A stretch of 64,000 nucleotides of DNA from Taenia hydatigena (lineage: Eukaryota > Platyhelminthes > Cestoda > Cyclophyllidea > Taeniidae): the NCBI GenBank assembly GCA_036345935.2, contig JADWOT020000006.1, positions 15,040,519 through 15,104,518 on the forward strand, given 5' to 3'. The notes beneath the pieces were generated by a model that was not told the origin of the DNA, ran no database searches, and saw nothing but the letters and a program-made list of their open reading frames with translations. How positions within the stretch are numbered: position 1 is the stretch's first letter; every line of letters starts with the position of its first letter. The position numbers were made by a program, and so were the translations under genes. Shown piece after piece: positions 11,758 to 52,515 of this stretch.

Positions 11758-11943
11758 TGTAGTACTTTATCAGTTTGTGCTGCCGATTTCTGTCAAGGTC
11801 ACAGAGGTGGCCATATTGCCCTAGCTGCGTGGGCTGGCCTCTGAGCCATGCCAGCAGCCTTTTTTCCTCTGTCCGGTGAATATATTTATTCTACCTTAGC
11901 ATTCTGCCTTCTTTTGCTTTCGAGGGAGCCTCGGGACGCCACA
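11758..11943 (+). mobile_element. Solo LTR of the TRIM family with 5-bp target-site duplication AGCAT
   Basis: The copy begins TGTAGTACTTT and ends GACGCCACA, the family's near-inverted ends, and is 186 bp long. AGCAT lies directly before (11753-11757) and after (11944-11948) it, as expected of an LTR-retrotransposon insertion reduced to one LTR by recombination. The bases after the right AGCAT again read TGTAGTACT, so the target may have been another family copy. It closely resembles the reversed copy at 40648-40833. Confidence 0.85.
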
Positions 11944-11948
11944 AGCAT

Positions 11949-12150
11949 TGTAGTACTCATATTCTTTAAATGTGCTTTGTAGGCCAGAGGCGTGGAAACT
12001 CGCTGGAGCATGACACTTCCTCGGCCTGAACTCCCACATCTCGCCTAGCTGTGTAATTATCACCCTATATTATTAAAGATGTCGAAACATACGCAGGCTT
12101 CTACTAGCAAGGGTGACCAGGAGAGAGAGGAGGAACCCTCTACAAGCATT
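11949..12150 (+). repeat. Repeat family B, copy 1
   Basis: This interspersed repeat has related copies at about 50320-50552 and 52335-52515. Shared blocks include CTTTGTAGGCCAGAGGCG, CTGAACTCCCACATC, an ATTAAAGATG start and GAGGAGGAA...CTCTACA. An ATG at 12079 opens a short frame whose first residues (MSKHTQASTSKGDQ) match those of the other copies. The function and element class are unknown; it could be the leader and first codons of a retroelement or a mobile gene fragment. Confidence 0.6.
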
Positions 12151-18466: not shown

Positions 18467-18649
18467 TGTAGCTTCACGAGGCTTCCTTGAAGGCAGAAGA
18501 AGGCACAATACTTGGGCAAAAATATATGCATAACAGGCTGAGGAAACAGGCTGCTGCCATGACCCGGAGACTAGCCCATCCGCCCAGAGCAACTTGATCG
18601 CCCAATTGACTGCAACAGGAAAAGGCAGTAAAACAAACAAAGTATTCCA
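18467..18649 (-). mobile_element. Diverged TRIM-family LTR, reversed
   Basis: The reversed copy starts TGTAGCTTCACGAGGCTTCC. It keeps AAGGCAGAAGAAGGCA, GGCTGCTGCCATGACCCGGAGACTAGCCC and AAACAAACAAAGTATTCCA in the family order. It is more diverged than most copies and shows no clear target duplication. A still weaker relative may follow at about 18727-18885 (GGGCACAATGCTGAAGCAAAATATATG). Confidence 0.65.
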
Positions 18650-39213: not shown

Positions 39214-39370
39214 TGTAGTACTTTGTTGGAACTACCGGTTTCGGTCAAGGTCACAGGAGTGGCCGTACTGCCCTAGCTGCGCGGGCTGGCCTCCGGGCCG
39301 TTGAAGATATATATATTCTACCCTAGCATTCTGCCTTTTTTTATCTTCGAGGAAGCCTCGGGACGCTACA
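39214..39370 (+). mobile_element. Solo LTR of the TRIM family with an internal deletion
   Basis: It starts TGTAGTACTTTGTTGGAAC and ends GGGACGCTACA (157 bp). Compared with full copies it lacks about 25-30 bases around the CATGCCAGCAG...CCTCTGTCC block. ATTC occurs directly on both sides (39210-39213 and 39371-39374), compatible with a 4-base target duplication. Confidence 0.82.
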
Positions 39371-40647: not shown

Positions 40648-40833
40648 TGTAGCGTCCCGAGGCTTCCTCGAAAGCAAAAGAAGGCAGAAAGCTAAGGTAG
40701 AATACATATATTCACCGGACAGAGGAAAAAAGGCTGCTGGCATGGCTCAGAGGCCAGCCCACGCAGCTAGGGCAATATGGCCACCTCTGTGACCTTGACA
40801 GAAATTGGCAGCACAAACAGATAAAGTACTACA
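40648..40833 (-). mobile_element. Solo LTR of the TRIM family, reversed
   Basis: This 186-bp reversed copy runs TGTAGCGTCCCGAGGC to AAAGTACTACA. TTAAC (40643-40647) and TTAAT (40834-40838) flank it, a target duplication with one change. It is nearly the same sequence as the copy at 11758-11943, including GGACAGAGGAAAAAAGGCTG, so the two share a recent source. Confidence 0.85.
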
Positions 40834-44334: not shown

Positions 44335-45170
44335 CCAGGGTTTTATCCCTAAAATACACAGCAGAAAATTTCCTCAGATTACTTAAAACCTGATTCACAA
44401 ATCAGATTTAAGGGAGGCAACGGAAACCAGCATCAACAAAATGATTGTGGTAAAATTTGGCAACCTTATAGTGTTCCATGCTTTACAATACAGACAATTA
44501 ATGTCATGTTCAACTCCAGTGTAAAACAAGGCCTCCAATCCAAAGTAGGTGCTCCACCAGCAAAAATAAGCTAAAGACATTTTCTGACTTCTTACACTCA
44601 GGAACCTTTGCGGTGATAAAGATAAAAACAGCGAACAAAGGAAGCCTCTTGAGTACATAGGCGAGGTTTCTCGACGGAGCCACAAAGCCCAGACTTTAAC
44701 CCCAACGAATAGCCCAGTTAGCGTAGAAGGGCATAACAATGAGTTACAAACTGCGAAAAACCCAAAAACAGTACCACTCATGAACACAGCAAGCAGGAGG
44801 CGTAACTACGGGATACGACGGGCAAATGATTAAAACTGTGTAAATTTCTAACATTTATTAATAAGTGCCTACTGCATTGCGTCATTGCATTTGAAAAATT
44901 AGAAAGCCTTTAAATCATCGATTTCACGCCTTAATTTGAACAACTAGAAGGGAATTGTAACATGAACAAATGCATTTAATAACTGCACTAAATTTACAAT
45001 ATTTTGTTATTTATTGCTTAGATATATTTTAACAAAGCCGATATTGACGTTTATGGCTCACAAATGCACATGCTAAAATGTAATATGGTTTTACGACTTG
45101 CATTGGGAAGGACTGAGTTACAGAGTAAGAAACATGCATGAAGTCTGAAGGCACCGTTTGCATAAACATG
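44335..45170. other. Intergenic stretch upstream of the HAD gene
   Basis: A 130-codon minus frame at 44395-44787 has hydrophobic stretches but no recognisable family or splice context. I do not call it a gene. Confidence 0.35.
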
Positions 45171-45220
45171 TGTAGCGTTCCGAGGCTCCCTCGAAGACAA
45201 AAAATGGCAGAATGCTAGAG

Positions 45221-45266
<46 letters not shown>

Positions 45267-46259
45267 CGGACAGAAGGAAATAAGCTGGTGGCATGGCCCG
45301 GAGGCCAGCCTACGCAGCTAGAACAATACTGTAGTAACTTGGGTGTTGGAACTACAGGTTTCGGTCAAGGTCACAGAGGTGGCCGTCTTGCCCTAGCTGC
45401 ATAGGCTGGCCTCCGGGCCATGCCAGCATGCTATTTCCCCTTGTCCGTTGAATATATGTATTCTACTCTGGCATTCTGCCTTCTTTTGCATTCGAGCGAG
45501 CCTCAGGACGCTACAAATACAGCCACCTCTGTGACCCTGACCAGAACCGGTAGTTCAAACAAAAAAAGCACGACATTGCCCCTCTTCTCTTTCGAGCGTT
45601 GTCCCCGACACATCCCCTGGTGCACCTCCCGCGTCAGCCGTCACAACATACTCAGTGCTGCAAGAAGCACCCACGAGCTAACCATGCCAGTCGCCGACAT
45701 TCCACGCGATTGAGGCGATACTTGACACCAACGTCAGTAATCCCTCTTGGCAGTGCATTGGACTTCGAGTTTCGTTTGGCTTGGGAACAAAGTCCAGAAT
45801 AAGTGGTTCTGCCGACCATCAGTATGTCTGTAGGGAGGCGTTAGCACGCCGATCTCCTTAAGCAAGTATATTAGGGGCAATCTTCGAAACGGAACTTTCC
45901 AGGTGGTCCGTGGCTAGTGTCGCTTCCGTTGTTAATAGCTTTCTTGTAGAACACGGAGATGGGGTAGATGCCGGATGTGGACGTTGTTCGTGGCCCATCC
46001 GAAGCACATGCACTTCCTTTGCACCGCTGCAACATGCCACAGGCGGTAGAGGTCGGGATAAAAACCCTATAGAGTCGGGTCTGCTTTTCGCTGCCACCAA
46101 TGTAGGGTCCCGAGGCTCCCTCGAAGGCAAAAGAAGGCAGAATGCTAGAGTAAAATAAGTTGCTGGCATGGCCCAGAGACCAGCCCACGCAGCTAGGGCA
46201 GTACGGCCACCTCTGTGGCCCTAACCGATACCGGTAATTCAAACAAACAAAGTACTAAA
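45171..46259 (-). mobile_element. TRIM element, reversed copy, with a solo LTR nested in its 3' LTR
   Basis: Read on the minus strand: 5' LTR 46101-46259, primer-binding site 46089-46099 (complement TGGTGGCAGCG), internal 45576-46088, polypurine tract just before 45576 (GAAAGAGAAGAGGGG on the minus strand), and a 3' LTR split into 45171-45329 and 45516-45575. ACATG (45166-45170) and ATATG (46260-46264) flank the whole element, a target duplication with one change. The internal region encodes no gag or pol. The block 45524-46200 appears identical to the inverse of 51430-52106. The 45171 end carries a (TA)n run at 45222-45262. Confidence 0.88.
45330..45515 (+). mobile_element. Solo LTR nested inside the reversed TRIM, target duplication AATAC
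   Basis: It runs TGTAGTAACTTGGGTG to CAGGACGCTACA (186 bp). AATAC lies on both sides (45325-45329 and 45516-45520). Removing it joins GCAGCTAGAACAATAC to AGCCACCTCTG and restores the host LTR, so this insertion is younger than the element it sits in. Confidence 0.9.
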
Positions 46260-46507
46260 ATATGTCTAGGTGAATGTAATTTCTACGTCTCTACATCTAA
46301 TCTGCTACGCCGGTAGTGACGAATCGCATGATGTATAATGAACCGCATTGTTGGATCGAATGCGCCCTAACGAATCTTCTTCACGTTTAAATAAAATTTC
46401 GCGAAAGAAGAGTTCGGTAACTACGAGTCTGATGACGAAGCAGGCTATCTATCCGTGAGGAGGATGTGTCTCCTTAAAATGCATAACCCTGATCACTGTA
46501 CGCCGTT

Positions 46508-46613
46508 TGTAGAGTCTCGAGACTTCCTTCCTTCTGAGGTTATGCTATGCGGCTAGGACAATACGGCCACCTAAGTGACCGAAACCGGCAGTCAGAGCAA
46601 ACAAAGTATTACA
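46508..46613 (-). mobile_element. Shortened solo LTR with perfect CCGTT target duplication
   Basis: The 106-bp reversed copy starts TGTAGAGTCTCGAGAC and ends AAAGTATTACA. It lacks the middle of the LTR (the TTGAATATAT and CATGCCAGCAG blocks). CCGTT flanks it exactly (46503-46507 and 46614-46618). It carries the CACCTAAGTGACCG variant. Confidence 0.83.
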
Positions 46614-48558
46614 CCGTTCATACTTTTACCAATAAAGAATGGCCACGGAGGTCGAAGAGATACGCATCGAATCTAGCTCATATGGGGACTTAAGATTAGT
46701 TGGCAACTTACAGGCAACCGTATAGAGTAGGGCTCTTGCAGAAGACGATACTAGAAGCTGCGTAATTTTCAGCAATAAAAATGAACTTCATTTCCATTCC
46801 TTCCCCTTGTATGCAGTTGTCCGATAAAAGGCACCTCACGTTTAGAAACATAGTAAACATTTCATTATGATCGACTTCCCTCCTTTACAAAGTCATCTCG
46901 CTAATACAAATTAATTAACAAAAAGGTGTCCATACGAGATACGCTCTTAACTCTTGGGTGGTGGGTATCTGCGAACTCAATCATATGCAATAGCATTTCC
47001 TTTCTCCAGTGCTTACATCCTAAAAGCCGCCGACTACATATTGGAAGTACCTCAATTGGGTTGGATTTACCTACTGCGGCAAACAATGCAGCACCCAGAG
47101 TTCGAAGAGTCCTCTGCTACAATGTCATAGCCAGCCGAGTCTTCCCAGAAAACGAAAGAAGACATTATGCTCAGGGAGTACACATCAGATATACAATAGG
47201 GATTGTGACTATTAACATAATCTAAAGGTCTGACCACGCATCAAAGGCACAATGGTGGAGCATCTAAGTGGTCCTTCTTACCAAAACCAAGGGGTAAACA
47301 AACTGCCAGAGCATTGCAATATATCCTTATTCCTAACAATTACAAAGCAAACCATCAGTACTACTTTAGGATAGATGCATAAACCATCCATAATGGAGTC
47401 ATAGTTATTTAAGCTTTACCTTTAGACTCGTTCACCATATCCTGCAGTAGTGTAGGTCTCATTTATTAGGCCGTCATTGATGCAAAAGGTCATTTACAGT
47501 ATCTTACTTTCGCACACAAGTAAAGACGAAGCTTCTATCACAAATGTTCAATCTATGGTCTTTTCATCAGCGACACTTTTGATCTTTAACACCCAAACTA
47601 AGTCCTACTACGTACCTTGGGATCCTTTTTCTCGATTAGTCGATTCAAGGACCAATTTTTTTGGATCGACTGGTACGCTCACTTTGGGACAAAATTTTTC
47701 CAAAAACGAAACCAATATCAGATCCGGCCAATAGTTTTTAGTAAAACTTATGTCCCGCACTACTTCCCTAACATCGTAAATAACAGTCTGCAGAACATTT
47801 CCACAAGAATTTTTAGAACCTCATTTGAGTGGTGGTTGGTGATGGAAGACAAAGACAAACGACCAATTAAATTGGTGAGTGGCGTTGCCATAGGCTCGAC
47901 TGGCTGTTACCCTTCATAGACTTCGCTAACGAATGCCCATCATCTGGGCACATGCAATGGGGAGTACCTCAAACCCATGTGGGAACAATGAAACCATCCA
48001 CCCACACCCTTACCGCCCCTAATCCATGCAGACCCGTGGCTGCAGTGATGCAAAGCCTCACTGCTCCTGGCAGCCCAAATTGGCGGCTACGTCCGCATCA
48101 CAGCATCAACCTCTCCTCCATCAAAATGCGAACCGGGACCCCACCACCGATGCCGTGAAACTGAACATTGACAAAGTGAATTATATGATCACCCGGAAAA
48201 CCCATCTCAGCCTCATGGGTGCAGCGCTCTGACAAAAGGTGACCGCACTCTCCAAGGGACGCTTCCATAGCGACTGCTCTCAAATCAAATCCCACCTCCA
48301 CCAACTGTAAAATTGATCTGTGGTCGCACTGCCCTAAAATGGCTTGCTGACTTCATTGCTTTTCGCAGAACAATCAAACACAACGTAACCTATAAATCGC
48401 ACCTCAACCACAAATTTTTACAACATTCCTGAGTAAAATAATAGTCATGGGACACGTTTCAGCTTCACCCTATTATACTACAATTTATTGGATGCACAAG
48501 AGGACCAGCGTCTTAAGAAAGAAGCGACTGATTTCCAGTAATCCAACGGGTACATTCC
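46614..48558. other. Intergenic stretch downstream of GINS2
   Basis: A GC-richer patch at about 47940-48310 has overlapping frames on both strands without known similarity; it may be an old repeat. Plus frames at 47477-47919 are also unassigned. Confidence 0.35.
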
Positions 48559-49474
48559 TTAGGTATCAGATATTGACATGCTGCTTTGCGAGAGATCTGA
48601 GACGCCCACAATTCGCTGCCGTGCGGCCCGCAGGACAGCTAGCTGATCAAGGCAATTGGTCAAAAGGTTGCGAGCTGTGGCCAGCTCTAGAGACGTCAGC
48701 TGCGAAACCCTAGCCGTGGAAGCACCACTGAGGACAAAATTGTTTGCTGACGCAACAAATTTACCAACGCGAGCATCCCACAGGTCCTTCACTAACGTTC
48801 GAATTTGCTCATGGCTAAAAGGGGACGGAAAGTCCGATTTTGACTAACCTCAAATATTTTGATTGTACGTCCCATCAAAAGATTCTATGCACTTCATTGT
48901 GCGGTACGTTCCGCACAAGAAGAATGTGAAATGAAACAAAGGTATACTTACTTAGGTATATCCTCCAATGCATGCTGAAGTAGCAGAGTGGCCAGTTCCG
49001 AATAATGTGGGTGGGGAGGTGTAGTACAGCCCGTATTGAATTCCTCAATCTCCTTGAACTCTGATAATCGCGAAACGCACAACCAACTTGGAGGAACAAT
49101 ACGACACTTCTGTTGCTGACGCAAATAAAGAGCAGCCCAGAAAGGAACATCGGTGGGAATGTTCGGATAAAGGGGCCCAATCTTGAGAAAAAAAGCTGAG
49201 TACTCTTGAAATCAGAAAGCGAAAGATGACGACACTTGCCCGTATTCGAATCAAGCATCAGGATCACAAAACAAAAGTACATTTTGAAGTGAATACATAT
49301 ATAAAATTGCACTTCATGCAATTCGAATAGCGCTTTCAACATGACACTGCTAAAGCAGCGTCATACGCAATCACTAACTTGAGCTTCCATAAGATCAACT
49401 GATTCCATACGAAACCTCGGTACGATTGTGACGAGTTCACTCTCAGCCAAAAATTCCAGCTCATTGGGATCCAT
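48559..49474 (-). CDS. GINS2: GINS complex subunit 2 (PSF2)
   Basis: PSF2 is one of four GINS subunits that join MCM2-7 and CDC45 in the replicative helicase. Exons: 49379-49474, 48952-49181, 48559-48814. Phases agree and give 193 residues, against 185 in human. The start MDPNELEFLAESELVTIVP matches the conserved PSF2 N terminus. PLYPNIPTDVPFWAALYLRQ, QKCRIVPPSWL and HYSELATLLLQHALEDIP follow. The last exon has EQIRTLVKDLWDARVGKF, the strongest family signature, then LTSLELATARNLLTNCLDQL. An in-frame upstream ATG exists at 49546, but the family start is at 49474. Introns are 197 and 137 bases. Confidence 0.96.
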
Positions 49475-50121
49475 CACGCCAGAAATCCCGCCCACAACGA
49501 AACGAGGAAGTGGCGAGCTAGTAAAAGAATTGGATCTAAATACCAAAAGTCAGAAAAGTAAGTAACACAAAGGAGTATTAGCGATACTCATTAAAGTGGC
49601 ATTTCTCCCTAATTACAGGCCACTGCAACTATACATACGACTAGACGTAGTAGCGCTTTTAGACTGCAGTATGTCATTTAGGAATCAGAACAGGTGCAAA
49701 AAAATTAAAAATTTGTTTAATTGCTTATTTAAAAGTTGAATCTAAAAAATAATCAGCAACGTTGTGGATTTGCCGGCTCTAGTTCATCTTTCATGCAATG
49801 CTTCCATTCCGCACATTCGAATGCTGTCGATTTGTACAATCTTTAGAAGCCACGCCTCCTTGCCACTGCTTTACCGTCCTAGCATGTCTGCATGACGTTT
49901 TTACATGTGTAGTCACGCCAGAGACACGATAGGCCATATTGCTGACAGTGGAGTCCAGCCTCGCTTCTAGACGGCAGATAAAGCATTTACAACTTCTTAT
50001 GAGCAAAATCTTCTGGTTTTTCTTAATAAAAACCACTAGAGCCTGTAAGAAGCGAAATCTTTACTTGGTCATAGGTTTTGCAGCACAGAGGAATAATTTT
50101 TCGTTTCTTTAAGAAAGCTAG
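49475..50121. other. Intergenic stretch upstream of GINS2
   Basis: It should hold the GINS2 promoter. No clear core element was seen. Confidence 0.35.
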
Positions 50122-50307
50122 TGTAGCGTCCCGAGGCTCCCTCGAAGGCAAAAGAAGGCAGAATACTAGGGTAAAACATATGTATTCAACGGGCAGAGGG
50201 AAATAAGCCGCTGGCATAGTCCAAAGACTAGTCTACGCAGCTAGGGCAAGATGGCCACCCCTGTGACCCTGACCAAAACCCATCGTACAAACAATCAAAG
50301 TACTACA
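50122..50307 (-). mobile_element. Solo LTR of the TRIM family, reversed
   Basis: The 186-bp copy runs TGTAGCGTCCCGAGGC to AAAGTACTACA. GCTAG (50117-50121) and GCTGG (50308-50312) flank it, a target duplication with one change. Confidence 0.87.
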
Positions 50308-50319
50308 GCTGGAGTCCCA

Positions 50320-50552
50320 TGCAACACTTGTGATCTTCAAATGCGCTTTGTAGGCCAGAGGCGGGACGACAATTTTAACCTGGTTGCAGGGCGGCGCGGT
50401 GACTCCCAGGAGCGCAACATATCCCCGATCTGAACTCTCCTACAAGATCTCTTTGTTCCCTCTCTGTTACCGGTAACAAAGATGGCGAAGCTTGTTCAGA
50501 CTTTTAATAACAAGGGCAGTAAAAGGGAATAGGAGGGACACTCTACACCCTA
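50320..50552 (+). repeat. Repeat family B, copy 2
   Basis: It shares GCGCTTTGTAGGCCAGAGGCG, AACAAAGATGGCGAAG and AGGAGGGACACTCTACA with the other two copies. The middle is rearranged. Its ATG-led frame from 50482 (MAKLVQTFNNKGSK) is interrupted by a stop. Confidence 0.55.
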
Positions 50553-50602
50553 ATTGGCTTCTTTGCACTCAAATGATAAGTTAAATAAAGCATTATTGGC
50601 GT

Positions 50603-50788
50603 TGTAGTACTTTGTTTGTTTAAAATACCGGTTCTTGTTGGGGTCAAAGTGGTGGCTGTATTGTTCTAGCTGCGCAGGCTGGTCTCCTAGCCATGCCACC
50701 AGCTTATTTCCCTCTGTCCATTGAATGTGCATATTTTACTCTAACATTCTGCCTTTTTTGGTCTTCGAGGAAGCCTTGGAACGCTACA
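50603..50788 (+). mobile_element. TRIM-family LTR, first of a head-to-tail pair
   Basis: It runs TGTAGTACTTTGTTTGTTT to GGAACGCTACA (186 bp). A second copy in the same direction starts at the next base. Confidence 0.85.
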
Positions 50789-50975
50789 TTAGTACTTTAT
50801 TTCTTTAGGCTATCGGCTTTAGTTAGGGTCGCAGAGGTGGCCATATTATCCTGGCTGTGTAGGCTGGCTTTTGGGCCATGCCAGCAGCTTACTTCCCTCT
50901 GTCAGTTGAATGTATGTGTTTTTATTTATTGCTTCGCCTTTTTTTTGACTTCAAGAAAGCCTTTTGAACGCTACA
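50789..50975 (+). mobile_element. TRIM-family LTR, second of a head-to-tail pair
   Basis: It starts TTAGTACTTTATTTC, directly abutting the previous copy, and ends TTTGAACGCTACA. No sequence separates the two LTRs and no target duplication surrounds the pair. The two differ at many bases, so they are not a recent duplication. Confidence 0.8.
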
Positions 50976-51145
50976 AAGTTTGTTTCTATAGGTTCGTTTT
51001 AATGTCATCCTAAAAATAAGAAGCTGCTTGGATGAAAACGTTAAACAAGAATTTCCATAATCTGACGTAGGCATTGCAAGAGGAAATTCATGCAACTACA
51101 AAACAAAACTTTTTTAAGCGATAAAATGTTAACATAAGATTGATA

Positions 51146-51200
51146 TGTAGCGTCCCGAGGCTCCCTCGAAGGCAAACAAAGGCAGAATGCTAGGGTAGAA

Positions 51201-51243
<43 letters not shown>

Positions 51244-51361
51244 CGGACAGAGGGAAATAGCCTGCTGGCATGGCCTAGAGGCCAGCCTACATAGATCGAG
51301 TAGTACAGCCGCCTCTGTGACCTTGACCGAAACCGGTAATTCCAACAAACAAAGTTCTACA
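51146..51361 (-). mobile_element. TRIM-family LTR, reversed, with internal (TA)n expansion
   Basis: It runs TGTAGCGTCCCGAGGC to AAAGTTCTACA. The AT-rich segment present in all copies is grown to a (TA)n run at 51207-51242. It ends ten bases before the intact TRIM at 51371, in the opposite direction. Confidence 0.85.
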
Positions 51362-51370
51362 GGTATGCAC

Positions 51371-52219
51371 TGTTGCGCCTTTTTTGCTTGGACTACCGGT
51401 TTCGGTCAGTGTCACAGAGGTGGTCGTTTTGCCCTAGCTGCGTGGGCTGGTCTCTGGGCCATGCCAGCAACTTATTTTACTCTAGCATTCTGCCTTCTTT
51501 TGCCTTCGAGGGAGCCTCGGGACCCTACATTGGTGGCAGCGAAAAGCAGACCCGACTCTATAGGGTTTTTATCCCGACCTCTACCGCCTGTGGCATGTTG
51601 CAGCGGTGCAAAGGAAGTGCATGTGCTTCGGATGGGCCACGAACAACGTCCACATCCGGCATCTACCCCATCTCCGTGTTCTACAAGAAAGCTATTAACA
51701 ACGGAAGCGACACTAGCCACGGACCACCTGGAAAGTTCCGTTTCGAAGATTGCCCCTAATATACTTGCTTAAGGAGATCGGCGTGCTAACGCCTCCCTAC
51801 AGACATACTGATGGTCGGCAGAACCACTTATTCTGGACTTTGTTCCCAAGCCAAACGAAACTCGAAGTCCAATGCACTGCCAAGAGGGATTACTGACGTT
51901 GGTGTCAAGTATCGCCTCAATCGCGTGGAATGTCGGCGACTGGCATGGTTAGCTCGTGGGTGCTTCTTGCAGCACTGAGTATGTTGTGACGGCTGACGCG
52001 GGAGGTGCACCAGGGGATGTGTCGGGGACAACGCTCGAAAGAGAAGAGGGGCAATGTCGTGCTTTTTTTGTTTGAACTACCGGTTCTGGTCAGGGTCACA
52101 GAGGTGTCTGCATTGGTCTAGCCATGCCAACAGCTTATTTCTCTCTGTCCGTTGAATATATAAATTTTGCTCTAGTATTTTGCCTTCTTTTGCCTTCGGG
52201 GGAGCCTCGGGACGCTACA
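51371..52219 (+). mobile_element. Complete TRIM (terminal-repeat retrotransposon in miniature)
   Basis: The element is 849 bp. The 5' LTR is 51371-51529 and the 3' LTR 52055-52219. After one spacer base the primer-binding site TGGTGGCAGCG (51531-51541) complements the 3' end of a tRNA-Leu of the AAG/TAG type plus CCA, as I recall that tRNA. A polypurine tract, GAAAGAGAAGAGGGG (52037-52051), lies three bases before the 3' LTR. TGCAC occurs on both sides (51366-51370 and 52220-52224), a perfect 5-bp target duplication. The roughly 500-bp internal region has frames but nothing like gag, protease, RT or integrase, so the element must borrow its enzymes. The two LTRs differ at many bases, so this is not a recent insertion. 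Confidence 0.92.
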
Positions 52220-52334
52220 TGCACATTACTTTAAATGACTTAGTTGTTTTTGCCTAAATTTCACGCAGTTGGTAGGGCATTTCATCATCGCCAAATATTT
52301 TTGCAGTCAAAAAAGCAGTCCAAGTTTTTTACAC

Positions 52335-52515
52335 AATTTGAACCTCGTGGTGGAGCGGCGTGGAGACTCGCAAGAGCGTGGCTCTTCCCCGTCCTGACTC
52401 CCACATCTTGCTAGCTGTATGATTTCCACTCTCCATAATAAAGATGTTAAAACATGCTCAGACTTCTATTAACAGGGTTGACCAGAAGGAAGAGGAGGAA
52501 CACTCTACAAGCATC
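52335..52515 (+). repeat. Repeat family B, copy 3
   Basis: It shares GCGTGGAGACTCGC, CTGACTCCCACATCTTG, ATAATAAAGATG and AGAGGAGGAACACTCTACAAG with copy 1. The ATG at 52444 begins a 62-codon frame, MLKHAQTSINRVDQ, similar to copy 1 in its first two dozen residues. Confidence 0.6.

Follow-up and report, generated by a model that had tools for sequence, protein, structure and literature searches.

The closest described counterparts of the elements considered here are the terminal-repeat retrotransposons in miniature of taeniid tapeworms (ta-TRIMs), reported by Koziol et al. 2015 (PMC4558846). A ta-TRIM has two long terminal repeats (LTRs) of about 198 bp bounded by TG...CA, a non-coding internal region of about 590 bp in which no open reading frame (ORF) exceeds 120 codons, a primer-binding site for tRNA-Leu, a 15-base polypurine tract three bases ahead of the 3' LTR, and target duplications of 4-5 bp. 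GENECONV detected four significant conversions among the ta-TRIMs of Taenia solium and none in the other four taeniids tested, and the same paper mentions linked copies that lie less than 30 kb from each other and diverge by under 1% (PMC4558846). For human LTRs, non-allelic gene conversion occurs more often between linked copies (PMC4921805). Here we describe a 64,000-nucleotide stretch of Taenia hydatigena (contig JADWOT020000006.1, positions 15,040,519 to 15,104,518; hereafter the window), which holds two ta-TRIM-like elements, A (45171-46259, minus strand) and B (51371-52219, plus strand). They are inverted relative to each other, head to head, lie about 5.2 kb apart and share a perfectly identical tract of 677 bp, for which a recent non-crossover gene conversion between the linked inverted copies is very probably the best explanation.

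A base-by-base comparison of 45524-46200 (the copy in A, minus strand) with the reverse complement of 51430-52106 (the copy in B, plus strand) revealed 0 differences in 677 positions, and paired coordinates always sum to 97630, as an earlier note on this DNA had observed. The tract takes in the internal region in full (525 bp) together with the adjoining LTR portions, 100 bp at the end of the 5' LTR and 52 bp at the start of the 3' LTR. When 45171-46259 was aligned over its whole length with the reverse complement of 51371-52219, the check that the note had proposed, and the LTR nested in A was left out, the 849 ungapped columns contained 33 substitutions, all outside the 677-bp run, plus two gaps. 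The core is thus free of mismatches, and the abrupt stop of identity inside both LTRs described in the note holds. Beyond the tract, 33 of 172 positions are substituted (16/59 on the 5'-LTR side and 17/113 on the 3'-LTR side). To place the run against chance, we used our own permutation in the spirit of GENECONV, not that program itself: with the 33 differences shuffled 20000 times, the longest identical run averaged 100 and reached a maximum of 277, and the analytic bound for a run of 677 or more is about 8e-22. The 677-bp identity is therefore real and beyond chance.

In A's 3' LTR, the tract ends 3 bp from the AATAC duplication that borders the nested LTR. B has no such nested LTR, and copying may plausibly have stopped at that end because the two elements lose homology there. 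Since mismatches outside the tract come about every five bases (33/172), the true ends may fall slightly further in.

The LTRs themselves record how the common sequence arose. We aligned 15 copies from the window, namely the 5' and 3' LTRs of A and B (A5, A3, B5, B3) and 11 others, leaving out a sixteenth strong match (18467-18644) and all weaker fragments. A deletion around the AATATA-containing region is common to A5 and B5 and absent from A3 and B3; the LTR at 39214 carries a different deletion that overlaps it. Near the LTR end, A5 and B5 share a G-to-C change that is missing from A3 and B3, all 11 other LTRs having G. An A at column 100 is likewise common to A5 and B5 and found in 0/11 others, its placement hinging on an adjacent gap. 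Canonical retrotransposition leaves both LTRs of a copy alike (PMC4558846), so traits confined to the 5' LTRs and common to two insertions indicate that the sequence was copied as DNA after insertion. Separate recent retrotransposition of two identical elements is contradicted by these 5'-LTR-only traits together with the divergence of the LTRs.

Each element also retains its own target duplication, in line with the note. A is bordered by ACATG on the left (45166-45170) and by ATATG, with one mismatch to the left copy, on the right (46260-46264), while B has TGCAC on both sides (51366-51370 and 52220-52224). The duplications match within each element and not between A and B, and because they pair in this way there has been no net inversion.

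The anatomy of the two elements was delimited by an LTR profile scan and alignments. In B, the 5' LTR (51371-51529, plus strand; 51371-51429 outside the tract) is followed by an internal region of 525 bp (51530-52054), whose longest stop-free stretch in six frames is 80 codons, and by the 3' LTR (52055-52219; 52107-52219 outside the tract). The primer-binding site TGGTGGCAGCG (51531-51541) starts one base past the 5' LTR and is a putative match to animal tRNA-Leu(AAG). The polypurine tract GAAAGAGAAGAGGGG (52037-52051) precedes CAA and then the 3' LTR. In A, which reads on the minus strand, the 5' LTR (46101-46259; 46201-46259 outside the tract) is followed by the same primer-binding site, TGGTGGCAGCG, at 46089-46099, the mirror of 51531-51541 within the tract, and by a 15-base polypurine tract (45579-45593, the mirror of 52037-52051) 3 bases ahead of the 3' LTR. 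That 3' LTR is split into a proximal part (45521-45575), in which the tract starts at 45524, and a distal part outside the tract (45171-45329) by a solo LTR of the same family in the opposite sense (45330-45515, plus strand), bordered by AATAC at 45325-45329 and 45516-45520. The LTRs measure 159 bp (B5), 165 bp (B3), 214 bp (A3) and 159 bp (A5); B5, B3 and A3 start with TGT and end with CTACA, and A5 starts with TTT, its TG being mutated. A 151-codon ORF (51317-51772) extends across B's 5' LTR, from a neighbouring LTR on one side into the core on the other; it gave no Pfam match, and none of 50 candidates was a protein relative at E up to 0.1.

On this anatomy, A and B represent separate insertions of non-coding, ta-TRIM-like elements. 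They agree with the published ta-TRIMs (PMC4558846) in their taeniid host, TG...CA ends, LTR size class, primer-binding site after the 5' LTR, position of a 15-base polypurine tract, 5-bp target duplications, non-coding core and abundance of solo LTRs. They differ in the internal region (525 bp in B versus about 590 bp), in the range of LTR lengths (157-216 bp among the 15 aligned here versus about 198 bp; 8 of the 11 LTRs beyond A and B measure 185-188 bp) and in the start of the primer-binding site, one base past the LTR here versus four. An inverted pair or a tract this long is not among the ta-TRIM cases described in the available text of PMC4558846. The locus resembles human LTR conversion, an exchange of sequence between LTR-bearing copies that linkage favours (PMC4921805). 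It also resembles LTR-LTR conversion in plants in that conversion distorts ages taken from LTR divergence; the conversion measured there lies within LTR pairs, whereas here two different elements have in common the core and portions of both LTRs (PMC7251063).

This distortion bears directly on dating. With the taeniid intron rate of 7.1e-9 (PMC4558846), the LTR pair of B (22/138 sites) would correspond to about 13.0 million years (My) and that of A (24/159) to about 12.1 My. For the identical tract, 0 differences in 677 set the age at no more than about 0.31 My (95% upper bound), suggesting that the transfer would be recent. The earlier note had taken both insertions to be old. This stands for whichever copy was the donor; it does not for the recipient, whose LTR divergence is no valid insertion age because parts of both its LTRs were imported, leaving a patchwork. 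Only the donor's divergence is a valid age and, whether A or B, the donor is old. A's imperfect target duplication and nested LTR hint at age for that element, short of proof.

To ask which copy donated, we compared the tract with the outer LTR parts. Over the 52 columns in which the tract can be set against the outer 5' LTRs, B has two derived states in common with it, and none is found in the tract and A alone; at one further column neither the tract nor B has the consensus base, and their bases differ. The outer 3' LTRs offered no derived site favouring either element. As judged from these positions, B, the copy at 51 kb, may weakly be preferred as the donor.

A route consistent with these data can be outlined. 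One element, more probably A, would have been broken and then repaired off the nearby inverted copy, with strands pairing through the common LTR sequence. The 677 bp, that is, part of the 5' LTR, the whole core and part of the 3' LTR, would have been copied from the donor. Copying would have halted at one end beside the nested LTR present in A but not in B, and at the opposite end where the 5' LTRs strongly differ, and repair would have been completed without a crossover. The gene-conversion tract between inverted copies put forward in the earlier note is in this respect well supported by the perfect tract, the traits shared by the 5' LTRs only and the pairing of the target duplications.

Several points weigh against such a conversion. 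The direction is suggested weakly, by two sites, and total distances from the tract fail to separate the donors (B 8/52 versus A 10/52 on the 5' side; B 10/79 versus A 13/100 on the 3' side). At 677 bp across the whole core, the tract is longer than the maximum tracts of 14-450 bp in human LTRs (PMC4921805). No conversion was detected in four of the five taeniids tested, and near-identical tandem copies were ascribed to unequal crossing over (PMC4558846), a process that does not fit two inverted elements each with its own target duplications. Our comparison covers the 64-kb window, and a third identical copy elsewhere in the genome could be the true donor. Finally, the sequence comes from one assembly, in which misassembly or gap filling is possible.

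This last concern can be made specific: in the course of assembly or polishing, one core may have been filled in from the other or collapsed onto it. A collapsed repeat would yield perfect identity, and 677 bp is longer than a typical short read. Nevertheless, the tract ends sit inside LTRs, where the copies share homology, the target duplications fit on both sides of each element, and no N occurs anywhere in the window. Copies differing at 33/172 positions in their flanks would not normally be merged, so that even a collapse would imply nearly identical true copies; we regard an artefact as unlikely. The template could instead have been a complementary DNA (cDNA), made from B or a near-identical element, in place of the chromosomal copy. 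Such a cDNA of B would carry the U3 (unique 3') region of B3 and the R-U5 (repeat and unique 5') part of B5, which fits the imported parts, and a cDNA route has been raised for ta-TRIMs with reference to work in yeast (PMC4558846). It would, however, require that an old, altered copy be expressed and reverse-transcribed, and it leaves unexplained why, among many family members, the identical partner lies only 5.2 kb away (1,939 related loci are given for Echinococcus multilocularis; PMC4558846). A cDNA template therefore appears very unlikely.

The sequence of A outside the tract bears on another history. It consists of LTR positions 1-59 and 53-214, almost exactly one LTR with a 7-base overlap, as if only a solo LTR had been left of A and a full element had then been rebuilt, by break repair from the inverted neighbour or its circular cDNA or by recombination with a one-LTR circle. 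Against this, positions 53-59 are present twice in A and differ at 2/7 (GCCGTAC versus GCTGTAT), and two new mutations in 7 bases are unlikely beside 0 in 677. The duplicated positions may point to two earlier LTRs in A, the overlap being very short, and we give rebuilding from a solo LTR very little credence; if true, it would mean that solo LTRs are not always dead ends. The earlier note had also offered inversion with exchange. Inverted copies can cross over and invert the interval between them, but a single crossover should leave the exchanged pairings ACATG/GTGCA and CATAT/TGCAC, and these do not match. This alternative is contradicted by the target duplications, save for an even number of inversions, and is extremely improbable. 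Gene conversion off a linked inverted copy hence remains the explanation we favour.

The remainder of the window gives the setting of the pair. The window carries animal genes. A RAE1 protein pieced together from four exons is 85% identical to that of E. multilocularis and 71% to that of Hymenolepis diminuta, with further matches of 65% to Spirometra and 55-60% to flukes (best 120 of 1513 matches); its first exon is identical at 140/150 positions to E. multilocularis. A Sin3 fragment gave 11 matches, and both named ones come from flatworms. The RAE1 and Sin3 matches therefore place the host among the taeniid tapeworms. Pfam returned matches for 4 of 8 ORFs, among them a hydrolase below its cut-off, and none for the other 4, the ORF in B included. 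There were no Rfam matches in the window at the gathering threshold, and a 22-base LTR-end pattern had no exact matches in the bacterial, archaeal and viral contig collections, from which records of the window's own genome may be missing.

One LTR family accounts for 16 matches with E below 1e-20, all within 11376-52219, a high density for a group described as having very few mobile elements (PMC4558846). Two of its solo LTRs, 11758-11943 (target duplication AGCAT/AGCAT) and 40648-40833 (ATTAA/GTTAA, one mismatch), are 97% identical, while other family pairs, A and B aside, differ by about 14-38%. We considered these two as a second conversion pair and rejected this, because each is a solo LTR in a separate location and BLAST gave no match past the LTR; a younger subfamily suffices to account for them. 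The LTRs 50603-50788 and 50790-50975 lie side by side, a single base apart and oriented alike, and the former is the closest to A's outer 3' LTR (16/127 differing). Long (AT)n expansions occupy the same LTR position at 45221-45264, in A's 3' LTR, and at 51200-51242, in the LTR 51146-51361, and none of the 13 remaining aligned LTRs has them. Three stretches, 11948-12149, 50319-50561 and 52302-52515, belong to a second short repeat, roughly 200-240 bp long; every copy ends in CTCTACA, and by window coordinates each follows a TRIM LTR at a distance of 4-83 bp. The copy at 11948-12149 begins with TG and is bordered on either side by AGCAT, the 5-base sequence that also borders the adjacent solo LTR 11758-11943; where the other two begin is uncertain. 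This repeat is possibly another LTR family.

No published description of this locus was found among the matches listed in our literature searches. For taeniids, we found one paper on such conversion, and the four cases in its available text are all from T. solium (PMC4558846). With conversion among ta-TRIMs already published, the locus adds a further example of a known process. It offers a clean single-locus case in which conversion, as we read it, would have replaced the whole core of a retrotransposon copy, and it is suited to testing the roles of linkage and inverted orientation. For converted copies of ta-TRIMs, both LTR-divergence ages and phylogenies can mislead.

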